Shown here: positions 1-19,770 of the stretch, piece after piece | How the letters are laid out: each line of letters begins with the position of its first letter | Numbering within the stretch: the first letter of the stretch is position 1 | Translations under genes and position numbers: made by a program | From: Bacteroidota bacterium | GTDB lineage: Bacteria; Bacteroidota; Bacteroidia; Flavobacteriales_D; JABDKJ01 | Reading direction: 5' to 3' | NCBI GenBank assembly: GCA_024279715.1 | Contig: JAJRRH010000164.1 | Span: 1 to 37,593 of the forward strand | Length of the DNA: 37,593 nucleotides | The notes under the pieces: model-generated | The model's input: the letters and a program-made list of their open reading frames with translations, nothing else | Databases searched by the model: none | What the model was told of the DNA's origin: nothing

Positions 1-114
1 AAAGCTGCAAATATTTACCCTTGATCTTATGGTAGATACCCAATAGAGTCCTTTTTGCATTACTAATTGCATAGGAGGCACGATTATTATATTTTAGTTA
101 TTAACACCATTGAT

Positions 115-306
115 CCGCTTTTTTTATACAAAAACAAATAGTGTTGTATGAATACTTCGACAAGCTGAGTAGAACTACGAGCTGGACTGTGGGAAGTAAA
201 GCGTGAAAACTCCGATTTAGAAACGCCCAAATATGGGTATTTGAAAAACCCTATACTTGCAGGTGTTGCTTAATCGTTCAAAAATTGATGAATTTTCCAA
301 GTTAAT
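115..306. repeat. Dispersed structured intergenic repeat, copy 1
   Basis: This stretch aligns over its whole length with 18717-18908, by eye at roughly four-fifths identity with a few single-base gaps. It begins with an inverted pair ATACAA...TTGTAT (from 126), includes the phrase AATACTTCGACAAGCTGAG, and has a hairpin AAACGCCC (221-228), loop AAATAT, GGGTATTT (235-242). It ends with a shared block GATGAATTTTCCA plus GTTAAT. There is no ORF in it. The ACTTCGACAAGCTGAG part resembles short repeats common in Bacteroidota intergenic DNA. It could be a mobile miniature element or a transcribed structured RNA; the sequence alone does not decide. Confidence 0.8.
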
Positions 307-11126: not shown

Positions 11127-14100
11127 TTGACTAACTCCCCCTCAAATATAAAACGAACCTTTTACGCTAGCATGAGCGCTGTTGTAATCCTTGGCTTGTT
11201 TGCATTCTCCTCTTCAGACAAGATGGAGGTAGCCTCTTGGCGAAAAACTAATTTCACACTCCCTGTGGATTCTCCTGAAGTAGACTTGCCTTATCCTATT
11301 TCAGATACGTACAACCCTTTTGGTGGTGGTGGACTGATTGATATTACGCCGTCCAATATATCAGATAGTATGTCCTACGACCCAGTATCTGGAGAATATA
11401 ATTTTTTCCAAACAGTGGGTGGTTTGAACTATCGAAATCCTAGCTCCATGACGTCCAATGAGTTTTTGGAATATTCGATGGATGACATTATTCAATCCAA
11501 TTGGCAGGATTTTGTTCAGAATAGTAATAATAATCAACAACAAAATAATAATCCCAATCCATTCAAACCATCATTGAATATCAAAAGCGAGGTGTTTAAC
11601 AATATTTTTGGAAGTGATAAGATTGAAATACGTCCCCAAGGGTCTGCCGAACTTACCTTTGGCGTAAATTATTCTAAAACAGCAAATCCAAACCTGTCAG
11701 TACGGCAACAGACCAATACAGTATTTGATTTTGACCAAAACATCCAACTCAACCTTGTTGGAAGCATTGGCGACAAAATGAAGTTGCAATTTGATTATAA
11801 CACTCAAAATTCATTTGACTTTGAGAATAAGATGAAGCTTGAATACTCAGGTAAAGAGGATGAGATTATTCAGAAAATTGAGGCAGGTAATGTTAATCTT
11901 CCACTATCTGGCTCCTTAATCAGTGGTAGCCAAAGTTTGTTTGGAATAAAACTCCAGTCGAAATGGGGTAAACTAACTTCTACGACAATTCTCTCTCAGG
12001 AAAAGGGGGTAAGAAAGGAAATTAACGTGGAAGGAGGGTCTCAAACACAAGACTTTGAATTGTCAGCCGATGACTATGAGGCCAATCGTCACTATTTTTT
12101 AAGTAATTATTTCCGAGATCATTATGATGAGGCGTTAGCCGGACTACCAATAGTGAATTCTCCAATAGGCATTACTCGTATAGAAGTGTGGGTGACCAAT
12201 AAAAGGTCTGCCTATGAAGGAAATAGGAACATTGTTGCATTCACGGATATTGGTGAAGATCAAATATACTGGGATCCTAACAGCATACCCACTGGGCAAA
12301 CGGATATTAGTCCAACGGACTTGCCAGATAATGATAATAATACCCTTTATAATTCAGTGGCCAATAACCCTGCAATACGCTCGTTTTCATCTGCTTCAGG
12401 TGTGTTGACTAGTTTGGGGTATATTCCTTCAAATCATTTCGAGGATCTTGAAAGCGCTCGTAGTTTGAGTCCATCAGAGTTCTCATACAATTCAAGACTT
12501 GGCTTCATCTCGTTGAACCAATCGCTAAACAATGATGAGGTCTTAGGGGTAGCCTATGAATATACCATCAATGGACAGACCTATCAAGTAGGAGAGTTCT
12601 CCACAGATGGTATTGAACCACCGAATGCCTTGATGGTACGATTGTTAAAGTCGACAACCACTAATCCTAAGAATAAATTGTGGGATTTGATGATGAAAAA
12701 TGTTTATTCCATAGGAGCGTATCAAGTCAATAGAGAAAACTTTAGATTAGATGTGTGGTATAACGATCCTACCGAGGGATATGACATTCCATTCTTGCCG
12801 CAAGATGGATTAAGTCATTTGCCACTTGTCAATGTTCTTAATTTGGATAGAATAGATCAGAATGGCACAAACAGCCCAGATGGGGTCTTTGATTATGTGC
12901 CAAATGCTGGCACCCAAGGTGGAACAATCAATGAGAGAAATGGTCGAGTGTTTTTCACTTCTGTAGAGCCATTTGGTTCTTTACTTGATAGTAAGCTTGA
13001 GGCTGTCGGAGTTTCAGAAGCGGATAGAGCAGGCATCGTATTTCAAGCACTTTATGACTCAACGAAAATAGCTGCACAACAAATTCCTGAGCTCAATAGA
13101 TTCAAACTCAAGGGTACTTACCAGTCGGCTTCGTCAGATGAAATATCTTTAAACGCCATCAATGTCCCACAAGGATCAGTGAAAGTTACTGCTGGTGGGG
13201 TTCAGCTAATAGAAAATCAAGATTATACGGTGGATTATAACCTTGGAAGAGTGAAGATTTTAAACTCGGGATTGCTAGAGTCTGGCACCCCCATCAAAAT
13301 ATCTCTGGAAAGTAATAATGGACTTAATTTTCAAACCAAAACCATGGTTGGTAATCGTTTCGACTACGAGGTGAATGACAATCTGCTTGTGGGAGGAACT
13401 ATTCTAAATTTAAGTGAAAGACCGATTACTCAAAAAATAGATGTGGGATCTGAACCTATCAGTAACACGATTTGGGGTGCAGATATCAACTACCAGAAAG
13501 AATCTCAGTTTATTACCAAACTTGTGGATAAACTACCATTTTACGGAACCAAAGAAGCTTCAAATTTTAATTTCTCAGCGGAATTCGCACAACTTTTACC
13601 TGGTCACTCTAGAGCCATTACTAAAGAAGGAATATCATATGTGGATGACTTTGAAGGGAGCTATTCTACTATCGACCTGCGCTCATGGACACGTTGGTCC
13701 CTGGCAAGTACGCCTCAAGGGCAAGATATTAACTTCCCTGAAGGAAACCTAATTGACGACCTTGCCTATGGATACAATCGATCCCATTTGAGTTGGCACA
13801 CCATTGATAATTTGTTTTTTGGTAATAATAATTCGCTCCTACCACCAAATGTTACCTCTGACATGCAGTCGGATCATCGAATGAGAGAGGTGAGAGAAAA
13901 AGAAGTGTTTCCAACTAGAGATTTAGCACCAGGCTCTCTCCCAACGTTACCAACATTTGACCTTAGCTTTTATCCTTCTGAAATAGGAACATACAATTAT
14001 AACCCTGACCTTTCACTCAATCCGAACGGAACCATTGGATATGGTATTGGACAGTCGCCACAAGAAAAATGGGGTGGTATTATGAGGGATCTTACTACTA

Positions 14101-17100
14101 CTAATTTCGAACAAAGCAATATTGAATTTATTCAATTTTGGATGATGGATCCGTTTAATGATGATGCGGAAAACACAGGAGGCGGACAACTATACTTTAA
14201 TCTTGGGAATATCTCCGAAGATATATTGAGAGATTCTCGTAAAAGCTTTGAAAGTGGATTGCCTAGTGAGGGAAATCCAGCTGCGGGTGTAGATACAACC
14301 GTCTGGGCTATGGTACCTACAGGACAAGCTATTGTGAATGCTTTTGATAATGCCTCCGAGTCGAATGCAAGTCAGGATGTTGGTTATGATGGATTTAATG
14401 ATGAATTGGAAAACACACAACTTGCGGATTATGTAAATGCATTGCCTGGACCGATTCAAACCATAGTGCAATCAGATCCTTCCAATGATAATTATCATTA
14501 TTATAGAGGAAGTGATTATGATAATCAAGGGCTAGATATTCTACAACGATATAAACGATATAATAATACAGAGGGAGACGCAGTAACTGCAGTAGATTCC
14601 CCCGAAGATTATCCCACAAGATCACCAGTAGGCCCATCTACAGAAGATGTAAATCAAGACCAGAATCTAAGTAAAACCGAAAGCTATTTCCAGTACAGAG
14701 TGAATCTGATACCATCACAAATGAACGTTGGTCAGAATTACATCACCGACAAACAAACACGTACAGTTACCACTATCAATGAGGAAGACAGAGATATAAT
14801 ATGGTATCAATTCAAAATTCCATTGAGAGATCTGTCTAATGGTTCGGCTGAAAAAATAGGAGGGATACAAGATTTTAGATCCATCAGATTTATGAGAATG
14901 TACCTTAAAGGGTGGTCACAAGATATTACCTTACGATTTGCTAGGCTCGAACTTGTACGAGGAGAGTGGAGAAAATTCAATGGTTTTTTAGAAACAGATA
15001 TTGGTCCTGGTCAAGAGAGTTCACCTACCTTTGATATCTCCGCAGTCAACCTTGAAGAGAATAGCAATAAACAACCTGTTAACTACGTGCTTCCAGATGG
15101 TATTATTCGTGAGCAACAATTTGGCTCCACGAGAGCAACACAATTGAATGAGCAATCCCTCGCTTTAAATATATGTGAATTGCCTGATGGTATTTCGAAA
15201 GCAGCTTTCAGAAATTTGAATATCGATATGCGAACATACAAAAAACTGAAGATGTTTATCCATGCTGAAAATGCAGACCCTGTCAATGACTTAAATTATG
15301 CAGACTTAACTGTATTTGTACGTCTTGGAACTGACTTCAAAGATAACTACTATGAGTATGAAGTGCCATTATACTCCACTGATGATGGTGCTGTAAGCCC
15401 ATCAGATGTTTGGAAAGAAGCCAATGAAATGGAGATAGTTTTTAGTGACCTGAAACAATTAAAAACGGAAAGAAATTTGAACAATCATTTGACCAATGTG
15501 GAATATGAGAAAATGATTGAATCTGGAACACGGAGAATAGCTGTTAAAGGTAATCCTGTTTTGAGTGCCGTAAAGACTGTTATGATTGGGATAAGAAATC
15601 CTGCATCCCTTAATAATCCGTGGGTTGATATTGATGATGGGGCAAGTAAATGTGCTGAAATATGGGTCAATGAATTAAGGTTGTCGGACTTCGATGAACG
15701 TAGTGGTTGGGCTGCCATAGCAAGAGTCAATACGCAGCTTGCTGACCTTGGTAATCTTTCAGTAGCTGCCAATATGAGTACCCCGGGATTTGGAAGTATA
15801 GAGAAAAAAGTTAATGAACGTCAAAAAGAAGAAATACGTGGTGTCGACGCCTCGTCAAACATTGAATTAGGTAAATTCTTGCCCGAAAATTCTGGAATCA
15901 AAATACCCCTTTACCTTGGCTATAGTGAGACCATATCTAATCCACAGTTTGATCCATTGTCACCAGATATAGAAACAAGAGAAGTTAGTCAGTCCCTGAG
16001 TGGTGCAGAACGTAGAGCTTTCTTAAGAAGACGCCGTGAATTCTTGAAACGCCGCAGCTTCAATCTGACCAATGTGCGACGAGAAAGACCAACTGGAGCA
16101 GGTAAGCCCCATTTTTATGACATATCCAATGTAAGTGCATCGTACTCATATAATGAAATTACAGCATATGATATCAACACTGAATTCAATAACACACGAA
16201 ACTATCATGGCGGACTGACCTACAACTTCTCACCAAAACCGTTAACCATAAAGCCTTTTGGTAGTATTGGCGCAATTGGTAAATCCAAATGGTTGAAACT
16301 GATAAAGGATTTTAATTTTAATCTAGGGCCAAAACAATTTTCTTTCAGAACGGACATGGATCGTACCTATAACGAATTTCAAACAAGAAATAACACTACT
16401 GGTTTTTCATTCCAACCGCAAGCACAATACACCAAGACATTTAATTGGACCCGAGTTTATGACTTAAAATATGATATCACTAAATCATTGAGAGTCAACT
16501 TTACCGCAAATAATCAAGCCATAATTGGAGAGCCTACAGGTATCGTGGACAATACCGACGAAACCTATGAAGATCTGAAACAGGAAGTTTGGGGGAATAT
16601 TGAGAATTTCGGAGAAACGACTAACTATAACCATACATTTAATGTAAGTTATAAGCTCCCCCTTGATAAGTTTCCTTTGACAGATTGGATTACAGTTAAT
16701 ACAGGATACGCTGGCACCTATGATTGGCAGCGAGCACCATTTGCGCAAGATTCACTCTTGGCAAATACCATTCAGAATTCTAGAAACATGAATGTGAATG
16801 CGCAGGTTAATTTTCTTAATTTGTATAACAAGGTGCCTTATTTAAAGAAAATTAATAGCTCATCTAAAAAACGTAATAGCTCACGTGCCAATAAGGGAGG
16901 TCTTAAGAAAGGAGCTAAATCAGCAAGTACGAATAAAGGAAAACCAGAACCGTTTAATATTATACACGAGGCTGCTCGATTTATAATGATGCTGAAAAAC
17001 ATCAATATCACTTATACACAAACGGAAGGGCAGTTGCTTCCTAGTTATACTCCTAATACTAGTGTTATTGGTATGGATCCTAGTTTTAGTGCGCCTGGAC

Positions 17101-18326
17101 TAGGTTTTGTATTCGGAGAACAAGATCCCGATTATCCTTTCTATGCCGCTAGAAAAGGTTGGATAAGTACCCAAAACAATCAGAATATTGCACACACCAA
17201 TACTTATTCTGACAATCTTAACTTGCGCATGAAAATAGAGCCAATTAAGCACTTCAGAATAGATGTAACAGCCACTAGAACCAAAGCAAGAAACAATTCT
17301 GGATTCTTTAGATTTAATGAAGATTTACAGGATTTTGTTGATGATAATAACCTTGAAACAGGTAGTTACAGCGTGTCCATTATTTCTTTAGGCTCTACCT
17401 TTAGTAAGGATAATGAAGACCAGTCTAGTGCGGTCTTTAGGCAATTCATGACCAACAGAAGAGTGATATCCGCACGATTGGCTAATGAAACCCCTTCCAA
17501 TGCATTCTATGACGGTTATGGTAGCACATCGCAGGATGTCGTAATCCCAGCGTTTATTGCGGCCTATACAGATGTCGCTGCCGATAAAGCGAGTCTGAGT
17601 CCCTTATCAATATTGCCAATGCCTAATTGGCGTGTTACTTATGATGGATTCTCTAAAAATAAAAAAATAAAAAAGATTTTCAAATCCTTTACCATCGGAC
17701 ATGCCTATAGATCGTCTTATTCATTAGGGTCATATACTTCCAATTTAAATTATACATCACCAGATTTAGGGCCGCAAGCACGAGATATAAACAATAATAT
17801 AATCCCAAAATTACAAATTCAAAGTATCTCTATCTCTGAACAATTAAGCCCACTGATAAACGTAGACATGACCTGGCAAAACAGCCTTATATCCAAGGTG
17901 GAAATAAAACGGAGTAGAACCCTTAACTTCTCATTATCTAACTATCAATTGACAGAGAATAGAAGTAATGAACTAGTGATAGGAACAGGATATCGTTTTA
18001 AAAACGTAAAGTTCCCTTTCAAAATCCAAGGTAAGAAACGCCCTGTTAATGATTTAAATGTACGTGGTGATCTATCCATTAGAGATAATATCATCATCAC
18101 AAGGATTATTGTAACGGATGATGAAGGCAATGAGATTGAGCAAAACCAAGTAACCTCAGGTCAACTTGTGTTTTCACTCAAGACCTATGCTGACTACACG
18201 TTGAATAATCAATTGAACTTTCGTTTATTCTATGATCATCAATTTACAAACCCACAACTCGTCTTGTCTTACCCAACAACTAATATAAACGCTGGTATTG
18301 CAATACGATTTACTTTAGCACAATAA
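11127..18326 (+). CDS. sprA: SprA, type IX secretion outer-membrane translocon
   Basis: At 2399 residues this matches SprA (Sov in Porphyromonas), the giant 36-stranded barrel that exports type IX secretion cargo and is needed for gliding in Flavobacterium. The start region has a basic stretch and a hydrophobic core (residues about 10-30), consistent with a signal peptide. The TTG at 11127 keeps that basic stretch, whereas the ATG at residue 16 would lose it. SprA-family landmarks include 'NFFQTVGGLNYRNP', 'GVNYSKTANPNLSVRQQ', 'DNLLVGGTILNLSERPI', 'ISYVDDFEGSYSTIDLRSW', 'SKCAEIWVNELRLSDFDE' and a terminal barrel strand. A Lys/Ser/Gly-rich stretch at about residues 1908-1943 looks like a flexible loop. 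The frame is intact over 7.2 kb. It is followed by gcvH after 11 bases. Confidence 0.96.
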   Translation: MTNSPSNIKRTFYASMSAVVILGLFAFSSSDKMEVASWRKTNFTLPVDSPEVDLPYPISDTYNPFGGGGLIDITPSNISDSMSYDPVSGEYNFFQTVGGLNYRNPSSMTSNEFLEYSMDDIIQSNWQDFVQNSNNNQQQNNNPNPFKPSLNIKSEVFNNIFGSDKIEIRPQGSAELTFGVNYSKTANPNLSVRQQTNTVFDFDQNIQLNLVGSIGDKMKLQFDYNTQNSFDFENKMKLEYSGKEDEIIQKIEAGNVNLPLSGSLISGSQSLFGIKLQSKWGKLTSTTILSQEKGVRKEINVEGGSQTQDFELSADDYEANRHYFLSNYFRDHYDEALAGLPIVNSPIGITRIEVWVTNKRSAYEGNRNIVAFTDIGEDQIYWDPNSIPTGQTDISPTDLPDNDNNTLYNSVANNPAIRSFSSASGVLTSLGYIPSNHFEDLESARSLSPSEFSYNSRLGFISLNQSLNNDEVLGVAYEYTINGQTYQVGEFSTDGIEPPNALMVRLLKSTTTNPKNKLWDLMMKNVYSIGAYQVNRENFRLDVWYNDPTEGYDIPFLPQDGLSHLPLVNVLNLDRIDQNGTNSPDGVFDYVPNAGTQGGTINERNGRVFFTSVEPFGSLLDSKLEAVGVSEADRAGIVFQALYDSTKIAAQQIPELNRFKLKGTYQSASSDEISLNAINVPQGSVKVTAGGVQLIENQDYTVDYNLGRVKILNSGLLESGTPIKISLESNNGLNFQTKTMVGNRFDYEVNDNLLVGGTILNLSERPITQKIDVGSEPISNTIWGADINYQKESQFITKLVDKLPFYGTKEASNFNFSAEFAQLLPGHSRAITKEGISYVDDFEGSYSTIDLRSWTRWSLASTPQGQDINFPEGNLIDDLAYGYNRSHLSWHTIDNLFFGNNNSLLPPNVTSDMQSDHRMREVREKEVFPTRDLAPGSLPTLPTFDLSFYPSEIGTYNYNPDLSLNPNGTIGYGIGQSPQEKWGGIMRDLTTTNFEQSNIEFIQFWMMDPFNDDAENTGGGQLYFNLGNISEDILRDSRKSFESGLPSEGNPAAGVDTTVWAMVPTGQAIVNAFDNASESNASQDVGYDGFNDELENTQLADYVNALPGPIQTIVQSDPSNDNYHYYRGSDYDNQGLDILQRYKRYNNTEGDAVTAVDSPEDYPTRSPVGPSTEDVNQDQNLSKTESYFQYRVNLIPSQMNVGQNYITDKQTRTVTTINEEDRDIIWYQFKIPLRDLSNGSAEKIGGIQDFRSIRFMRMYLKGWSQDITLRFARLELVRGEWRKFNGFLETDIGPGQESSPTFDISAVNLEENSNKQPVNYVLPDGIIREQQFGSTRATQLNEQSLALNICELPDGISKAAFRNLNIDMRTYKKLKMFIHAENADPVNDLNYADLTVFVRLGTDFKDNYYEYEVPLYSTDDGAVSPSDVWKEANEMEIVFSDLKQLKTERNLNNHLTNVEYEKMIESGTRRIAVKGNPVLSAVKTVMIGIRNPASLNNPWVDIDDGASKCAEIWVNELRLSDFDERSGWAAIARVNTQLADLGNLSVAANMSTPGFGSIEKKVNERQKEEIRGVDASSNIELGKFLPENSGIKIPLYLGYSETISNPQFDPLSPDIETREVSQSLSGAERRAFLRRRREFLKRRSFNLTNVRRERPTGAGKPHFYDISNVSASYSYNEITAYDINTEFNNTRNYHGGLTYNFSPKPLTIKPFGSIGAIGKSKWLKLIKDFNFNLGPKQFSFRTDMDRTYNEFQTRNNTTGFSFQPQAQYTKTFNWTRVYDLKYDITKSLRVNFTANNQAIIGEPTGIVDNTDETYEDLKQEVWGNIENFGETTNYNHTFNVSYKLPLDKFPLTDWITVNTGYAGTYDWQRAPFAQDSLLANTIQNSRNMNVNAQVNFLNLYNKVPYLKKINSSSKKRNSSRANKGGLKKGAKSASTNKGKPEPFNIIHEAARFIMMLKNINITYTQTEGQLLPSYTPNTSVIGMDPSFSAPGLGFVFGEQDPDYPFYAARKGWISTQNNQNIAHTNTYSDNLNLRMKIEPIKHFRIDVTATRTKARNNSGFFRFNEDLQDFVDDNNLETGSYSVSIISLGSTFSKDNEDQSSAVFRQFMTNRRVISARLANETPSNAFYDGYGSTSQDVVIPAFIAAYTDVAADKASLSPLSILPMPNWRVTYDGFSKNKKIKKIFKSFTIGHAYRSSYSLGSYTSNLNYTSPDLGPQARDINNNIIPKLQIQSISISEQLSPLINVDMTWQNSLISKVEIKRSRTLNFSLSNYQLTENRSNELVIGTGYRFKNVKFPFKIQGKKRPVNDLNVRGDLSIRDNIIITRIIVTDDEGNEIEQNQVTSGQLVFSLKTYADYTLNNQLNFRLFYDHQFTNPQLVLSYPTTNINAGIAIRFTLAQ

Positions 18327-18337
18327 AACTTATAATT

Positions 18338-18715
18338 ATGAATGTCCCACAAAATTTAAAATACACAGAAGATCACGAATGGGTAAACCTTGATGGAAAT
18401 ATTGCCATCGTAGGTATAACTGATTTTGCTCAAGGTGAACTTGGAGATATAGTGTTTATCGAGATTGAGACAGAGGGTGAAGAACTTGCTATTGGAGAGG
18501 TGTTCGGTACTATTGAAGCGGTAAAAACAGTTTCGGATTTATTCCTTCCCGTAGATGCTAAAATCTTAGAAGTAAATTCAGCAATTCTTGACAATCCTGA
18601 ACTTGTTAATAGCGATCCCTTTGGGGAAGGATGGCTTGTGAAGATAGAATTAAAGGACGCTTCTTCTTTGGATACCCTTCTCACAAGTGAAAAGTACGAA
18701 GAACTTATCGCTTAA
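18338..18715 (+). CDS. gcvH: Glycine cleavage system H protein
   Basis: This 125-residue lipoyl-carrier protein shuttles the aminomethyl group between the P, T and L proteins of glycine cleavage. It shows LKYTEDHEWV at the N-terminus and the lipoylation site GTIEAVKTVSDL, with K63 as the modified lysine, then NPELVNSDPFGEGWL near the C-terminus. The length is normal for GcvH (about 125-130). It follows sprA by 11 bases in the same direction and is probably read from the same transcript, even though the functions are unrelated. The second intergenic repeat copy begins directly after its stop codon. Confidence 0.97.
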   Translation: MNVPQNLKYTEDHEWVNLDGNIAIVGITDFAQGELGDIVFIEIETEGEELAIGEVFGTIEAVKTVSDLFLPVDAKILEVNSAILDNPELVNSDPFGEGWLVKIELKDASSLDTLLTSEKYEELIA

Positions 18716-19104
18716 CCCGCTTTAATCATACAAATACGAAGTTATTGTATGAATACTTCGGCAAGCTCAGCAGAACTGCAAGCTGGGTTCGTGAGAAGCA
18801 AAGCGTGAAACCCCGATTTAGAAACACCCAAATTTTGGTGTTTGAAAAACCCCAAACTTGCAGGGGCTGCTTATTCGCTGAAAAATCGATGAATTTTCCA
18901 GATTAATTATTCCTTCCAGTGCCGTTTGTTGTAGAATGGCAACCTTAGCTTGCAAAAGATAAACTTTTTCGTAGAATCATTTATTTTTTAATCAACTTGG
19001 TGTAGTTTTTGATGGGTTATTATCTCTAAGCTACTAGTTCATCGATAATTATGTGTTCTTGAATGTTCTGATGTCTTGGAGATTTTATAAATAAACCAAA
19101 AGTT
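18716..19104. other. Gene-free region: repeat copy 2 and upstream region of TonB gene 1
   Basis: The first half is the second copy of the intergenic repeat. The rest (about 18909-19104) is AT-rich with no ORF I can support. A box TAGTTTTTG at 19003-19011 has one base too many to match TAnnTTTG exactly, so a promoter for the first TonB gene is only suggested. Confidence 0.6.
18717..18908. repeat. Dispersed structured intergenic repeat, copy 2
   Basis: This is the partner of the copy at 115-306. It begins one base after the gcvH stop. ATACAA (18728-18733) pairs with TTGTAT. CTGCAAG (18776-18782) pairs with CTTGCAG (18857-18863), with CCCA/TGGG able to extend that stem across a small internal loop. 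Enclosed in this is the hairpin AAACACC (18822-18828) / GGTGTTT (18837-18843). The corresponding hairpin in copy 1 differs in sequence at the stem yet still pairs. The element has no coding capacity. Confidence 0.8.
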
Positions 19105-19770
19105 ATGAGAAAAATAGACAAACCACAAGCAAGTATAAGTACACTAAAGCTACTAGGATTTACAGCAGCATTCGCATTTACCTTAGTGGCATTTGAATGG
19201 AAACAATTTGAACCTGAAATGGACATTTATCACTCTGTTGATATTATTTCAATAGACTTCGAAGCTGTACCAGTAATGCCAAAGCCAAAGAAAAAAAAGA
19301 AAATGACTGGGAAGGTTGTCAAAAAGACAAAAGGGGCAAAAATGGTGATAATTCCTGATATTGAAACTAAATCACCGGATTATCAATCCTCGCTAATTGA
19401 CACCGTTGTTTACGATGGAGACGACCCTGATGATGGATTTGAGCCTCCAATCGACAGGCCTTATATAGTGACAGATGTACGGGCTGAATTCCCCGGAGGC
19501 GATCAAGCACTGTTCAATTTGCTAGCAAAAGAAATAGTTTATCCCGATATTGCTCTCCAAAATGGAATCGAGGGGAAAGTTCATGTTCGATTCGTTGTGG
19601 GTAGAGATGGAAGTACAAGTAGCATAGAAATAATACGTGGAATCGGCGGTGGATGTGAAGAAGAAGCCGTTCGAGTGCTAAGTAATTTACCCCAATGGAA
19701 GCCTGGATTAGTGGATGGAAAAAAGGTGGATTCATATTTTTATCTACCAGTTAATTTTAAAACAAAATAA
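19105..19770 (+). CDS. TonB C-terminal domain protein 1 (lysine-rich linker)
   Basis: The 221-residue protein is of the energy-transducer TonB type. It has a short cytoplasmic N-terminus, one membrane segment (about residues 12-29, ending FEWKQFEP), a linker and a TonB C-terminal domain (about 125-221) with EFPGGDQALFN, YPDIALQNGIEGKVHVRFVV, GGGCEEEAVR and WKPG. It would couple the inner-membrane proton motive force to outer-membrane receptors if it works with ExbBD. The linker carries a run of lysines around residues 58-78 and is not the usual long Pro-rich spacer; it is short (about 95 residues), so reach across the periplasm is a question. Two paralogs follow in tandem. Confidence 0.85.
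   Translation: MRKIDKPQASISTLKLLGFTAAFAFTLVAFEWKQFEPEMDIYHSVDIISIDFEAVPVMPKPKKKKKMTGKVVKKTKGAKMVIIPDIETKSPDYQSSLIDTVVYDGDDPDDGFEPPIDRPYIVTDVRAEFPGGDQALFNLLAKEIVYPDIALQNGIEGKVHVRFVVGRDGSTSSIEIIRGIGGGCEEEAVRVLSNLPQWKPGLVDGKKVDSYFYLPVNFKTK

Follow-up and report, generated by a model that had tools for sequence, protein, structure and literature searches.

The window (the whole 37,593-nucleotide stretch analysed, from contig JAJRRH010000164.1 of a Bacteroidota bacterium) contains two copies of a repeat of about 195 bp, both on the forward strand. The second copy adjoins gcvH, whose product matches GCV_H to profile position 119 of 122. Directly upstream of gcvH lies a sprA-type gene (11127-18326, 2399 aa, SprA_N), and a TonB_C protein gene is found downstream of it, at 19105. 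A repeat of about 190 bp had been proposed here in the initial annotation, and its existence is borne out by blastn, which aligns 115-306 with 18717-18907 at 82% identity over 193 columns (E ~6e-48). The true ends of the element are located a few bases outward, so that it stretches from TTAA to TTAA at 110-305 (copy 1) and 18712-18906 (copy 2). The ATACAA/TTGTAT arms noted earlier are present in both copies, as is an AAACRCCC..GGGTRTTT palindrome. Copy 2 had been placed directly after the gcvH stop codon, which is nearly the case, but the stop codon is itself inside the terminal TTAA of the element. The features of the two copies are as follows.

110..305, + strand: putative MITE, copy 1, whole, 196 bp; the older one, with 87% identity to the consensus in an alignment to ~30 copies
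110..131, + strand: left terminal inverted repeat of copy 1, TTGATCCGCTTTTTTTATACAA (consensus TTAACCCGCTTTATTCATACAA); its first four bases are probably a decayed TTAA target copy, and it resembles the end on the 3' side of IS1380 transposase genes
126..149, + strand: left hairpin of copy 1 (ATACAA..TTGTAT)
153..175, + strand: 23-bp REP-like segment of copy 1, TACTTCGACAAGCTGAGTAGAAC, from the alignment
213..276, + strand: central long imperfect hairpin of copy 1; the palindrome reported earlier is 221-242
284..305, - strand: right terminal inverted repeat of copy 1 (consensus ATTGATGAATTTTTCGGGTTAA); the same as the end 5' of IS1380 transposase genes
18712..18906, + strand: putative MITE, copy 2, whole, 195 bp; 93% identical to the consensus
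18712..18733, + strand: left terminal inverted repeat of copy 2, TTAACCCGCTTTAATCATACAA
18713..18715, + strand: gcvH stop codon TAA, common to the TTAA of the element
18728..18750, + strand: left hairpin of copy 2 (ATACAA..TTGTAT)
18754..18776, + strand: 23-bp REP-like segment of copy 2
18814..18877, + strand: central long imperfect hairpin of copy 2; the palindrome reported earlier is 18822-18843
18885..18906, - strand: right terminal inverted repeat of copy 2, ATCGATGAATTTTCCAGATTAA

Extent and copy number of the repeat

The element had been described as occurring in two copies. A genome-wide search of the assembly (2.36 Mb in 207 contigs, 72% complete) found ~45 copies and fragments. When ~30 of the genome copies are aligned, their ends are abrupt: the element spans ~195 bp, TTAACCCGCTTTATTCATACAA…TTGATGAATTTTTCGGGTTAA (its bounds in full are TTAACCCGCTTTATTCATACAAAAACGAAGTG...CTGAAAAATTGATGAATTTTTCGGGTTAA), and the flanks of different copies are unrelated outside the TTAA. 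The terminal inverted repeats are imperfect, about 18 bp in length (TTAACCCG....ATTCAT), and their pattern has 76 matches in this genome versus 6 for a reversed control pattern. The element displays three of the properties by which a MITE is recognized, namely (i) a short length, below about 300 bp, and a non-coding sequence, with ORFs of at least 80 aa absent from both window copies, (ii) terminal inverted repeats with sharp boundaries, and (iii) many copies dispersed over the genome. A search of the same genome for long elements bearing this terminal repeat near extra repeat sites returned only MITE copies, fragments and chance matches.

Some copies are found in compound or truncated arrangements. 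Locus L006:1-435 is a pair of MITE copies in the same orientation with ~50 bp between them. At L041:1020-1397 and L056:1412-1666, MITE copies are split close to their central palindrome by a different repeat, which has CTCGAG arms (GGTTCTCGAGC...GCTTTGTCGAGAACCTTCAATTTGTCTTTCATTTC in L056) and represents a second repeat family of this genome. The 34-bp near-perfect palindromes at L073:1973-2006 and L085:1692-1725 are composed of the two MITE ends joined head to head (TTAWYCCGAAAAATTCATGAATTTTTCGGGTTAA) and look like elements from which the whole inside has been lost. Finally, L054:1-187 starts with the left end TTAACCCGCTTTATTCAT and continues into an unrelated inside with repeated AGCATCCAAAACAAAATATTTAGAAAACGCCGGAGG at the contig end; it is perhaps a second MITE type.

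Probable target site and relationship of the ends to IS1380 elements

As judged from the flanks of the copies, TTAA is most likely the 4-bp target that is duplicated upon insertion in this genome. TTAA/TTAA flanks 20 of the 39 scorable copies; TTAA is palindromic and hence is not separable from the repeat by itself. A TTAT/TTAT direct repeat is found at 3 of the 39 (Fisher p 0.008), two of the three being in one sub-family, which makes their independence incomplete, and one copy from Fluviicola is flanked by ATAA..ATAA. In plasmids of Pseudanabaena, a named IS1380 element whose own sequence starts at CCTG is represented by two copies, with the flanks CTAA..CTAA and TTAG..CTAG. As these two copies carry different 4-mers, the tetramer belongs to the target; for this related element the duplication is clear. 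No empty site, in which the element would be absent, was seen.

The copies are intergenic, sometimes positioned exactly on TAA stop codons, and 37 out of 40 have no overlap with an ORF of at least 100 aa. The orientations of the surrounding genes are mixed. In the convergent pairs lspA/PAP2 and hisS/PPK2, both genes end exactly on the two TTAAs of the element, and gcvH likewise ends exactly on its TTAA. The simplest explanation for the two pairs is that one common TTAA was duplicated.

In other sampled genomes of the order (Flavobacteriales), intact and broken IS1380-family transposase genes are bounded by termini that equal, or nearly equal, those of the element. Genome G327 (L133) carries a 1619-bp element with an intact transposase that matches NF033539, "IS1380 family transposase", with 258 bits against a cut-off of 180. 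This element terminates in TTAACCCGAAAATTTCAT at the transposase-start side and in TTAACCCACATTATTCAT at the opposite side, and displays the same asymmetry as the MITE, with an end of the AAAA type on the 5' side and of the CATT type on the 3' side. The left end of the MITE resembles the 3' side of the G327 element and the right end to its 5' side, which shows that the asymmetry is kept. A 1762-bp element in G385 (L132) has TTAACCTGCATTATTCATGA at both ends and encodes an intact NF033539 transposase (392 bits), although its contig may be a contaminant, as G385 is listed as 7% contaminated. A 533-bp deletion remnant in G074 (L115) still has its two ends, and the broken start of its transposase matches PF13701. 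G074 has the 18-bp sequence ATGAATTTTTCGGGTTAA without a change at the end where the transposase starts, and leaders at contig ends in G291, G040 and G104 have it equally unchanged. In the latter three genomes, the final ~120 bases of the contigs include this 18-bp right end together with a leader alignable to that of G327; the contigs stop inside the element, and a transposase is presumed there from the common leader.

Comparing these sequences, we propose that the element is a MITE carrying IS1380-family ends and that it was probably mobilised by an IS1380 transposase, with a probability of about 0.88. A miniature mobile element had been one of the options of the initial annotation, and it can now be named an IS1380-family MITE. 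The notion that the copies could be decayed parts of a known insertion sequence or gene holds in a partial form, as a relation to an insertion sequence: the MITE and the IS have their ends in common, but not their internal sequence. No IS1380-family MITE is described in the papers surveyed on IS1380 with MITE or TTAA.

The search of the own genome, a draft assembly that is 72% complete, returned no IS1380 transposase, as would be expected if the MITE were moved by an enzyme from a different transposase family that also uses TTAA. We consider such an origin very unlikely, however, because 18-20 bp of the ends match IS1380 at both ends and their asymmetry is equal in G327. The result for the own genome may be an effect of the assembly, or the parent may have been lost. 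The 11 genomes with same-ended short elements similarly yielded no IS1380 transposase except for one weak broken match. Insertion sequences often drop out of draft MAGs.

In the mechanism that we propose for the IS1380-family MITE, the ~18-bp ends (CCCG..ATTCAT) would be the recognition site of the transposase, and the element would be inserted at TTAA with duplication of the four bases. Copies would come to be located between genes or on TAA stop codons, where the duplicated TTAA would be harmless, and, once inserted, would decay neutrally.

The window element resembles the IS1380 family (NCBIfam NF033539; Pfam PF13701) in the terminal pattern at both ends, in the asymmetry of the ends as found in G327, in a 4-bp TTAA-like target duplication, which is probable for the window element, and in a subterminal hairpin at the transposase-start end. 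It differs in being ~195 bp long without a transposase, whereas the IS measures 1.6-1.8 kb, and in its internal sequence, which is not common to the two. A parallel can be drawn to MITECca01 of Cardinium, also a member of the Bacteroidota, an IS982-family derivative whose parent is present (PMC9769881). Both are short and non-coding, exist in many, mostly intergenic copies, and carry the ends of a parental IS, but the window element has IS1380 as its parent type, and the search of the genome did not reveal this parent. The piggyBac elements, for which IS1380 transposases are an outgroup, usually target TTAA and have ends mostly starting with CCC (PMC10813416). Unlike the window element, piggyBac elements and their MITEs are eukaryotic; the likeness drawn here is in target and ends. 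A repeat that is abundant in several Bacteroidota lineages and has been without a name can be assigned, with the probability given above, to an IS1380-type, TTAA-targeting system.

Base pairing in the hairpins

The stem of the palindrome had been reported to differ between the two copies but to pair still, from which it was reasoned that selection keeps the pairing. The copies do differ; the description is nevertheless misleading, as both depart from a consensus stem that is a perfect 22-bp palindrome, AAACACCCAAATTTGGGTGTTT: copy 1 by a G.U and a C.A, copy 2 by the loss of one G-C. The consensus fold is strong (z -5.5), and its optimum is the long central hairpin, which competes with this palindrome.

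Covariation, the check that had been suggested for the repeat, is absent across 32 copies by RNAalifold, pair counts and shuffles. RNAalifold returned no consensus pair. In the palindrome, 87.8% of the cells are paired versus 87.7% in shuffled alignments, the two-sided changes number 1 versus 1.1, and the divergence of the columns is 0.088 versus 0.099 for the rest of the element. When the whole optimum fold is considered, 241 of 312 one-sided changes break a pair; two-sided changes keep it in 17 cases, with 10 expected from shuffles that ignore relatedness, and break it in 14. The folding energy per base is correlated with identity to the consensus (Spearman −0.73), the fold being weaker with distance. 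Considering the predominance of pair-breaking one-sided changes and this correlation, the variation of the hairpin is decay of the copies from a structured master, as expected if neutral. The earlier argument for selection on pairing thus fails.

A structured non-coding or cis-regulatory host RNA, of which many copies are kept by selection on the fold, would account for the strength of the consensus fold, for the surplus of kept two-sided changes over the shuffles, and for two properties of the founder elements: the relative in G403 folds well (z −6.5), and between it and the own consensus four two-sided changes in the central and left hairpins keep the pair while none breaks it. (The same comparison with G404 gives 0 kept and 2 to 4 broken two-sided changes, partly for alignment reasons.) We nevertheless find this explanation most improbable. 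Rfam families gave no match above the gathering score, two tRNAs elsewhere being the sole matches, the palindrome shows no covariation, and the fold decays with divergence; furthermore, the position and orientation of the copies relative to genes are variable, and their boundaries are explained by transposon ends and a probable target duplication. More generally, a hairpin that is "still pairing" in two copies of a repeat may only mean descent from one palindromic master, and with many copies the pairing test on such a hairpin is at chance level.

Relatives and live elements in other genomes

A scan of GTDB genomes with the right end returned 30 loci in MAGs titled Flavobacteriales, Flavobacteriaceae, Cyclobacteriaceae, Lutibacter and Fluviicola, as well as one Chlorobiota and one Acetofilamentum. 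Many of these are short elements of 34-255 bp that have both ends, often with another inside. The inside of the window element recurs in G403 (L074) and in a Fluviicola MAG (G404, L075/L098). When the genomes of relatives were queried with the whole element, the same inside was found only in G193 (Fluviicola MAG NORP3).

The 23-bp REP-like segment, which contains ACTTCGACAAGCTCAG and presumably resembles repeats widespread in Bacteroidota, is missing from a sub-family of the own genome (L023, L026) and from the relatives in two other genomes, and was therefore probably gained in this lineage. This segment is what would suggest that the repeat is of the REP/BIME palindromic type and owes its spread to a RAYT-like enzyme, an explanation that is next to excluded, as the distribution of the segment makes it look like a passenger and as REPs lack the transposon ends and the probable target duplication of the element.

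The leaders of the IS1380 elements of G040 (ATATCTGGGC/GCCCAGATAT) and G327 (ATAATTGGGG/CCCCAATTAT), which were compared by eye, form fully paired 10-bp stems of differing sequence at the same place. We put forward only tentatively that, in live Bacteroidota elements of the IS1380 type, selection maintains a hairpin in subterminal position at the end where the transposase starts and that the MITEs preserve it. On these few sequence comparisons, among them the four pair-keeping changes between the founder elements of two genomes, a cis-function of the hairpin in live elements is plausible: it could possibly be a leader that silences read-through transposase expression, or a DNA structure that is read by the transposase.

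In G074, an IS end (L110:1-138) carries a near-perfect hairpin of ~30 bp (RNA fold z −8.3) that is far stronger than those of its relatives.
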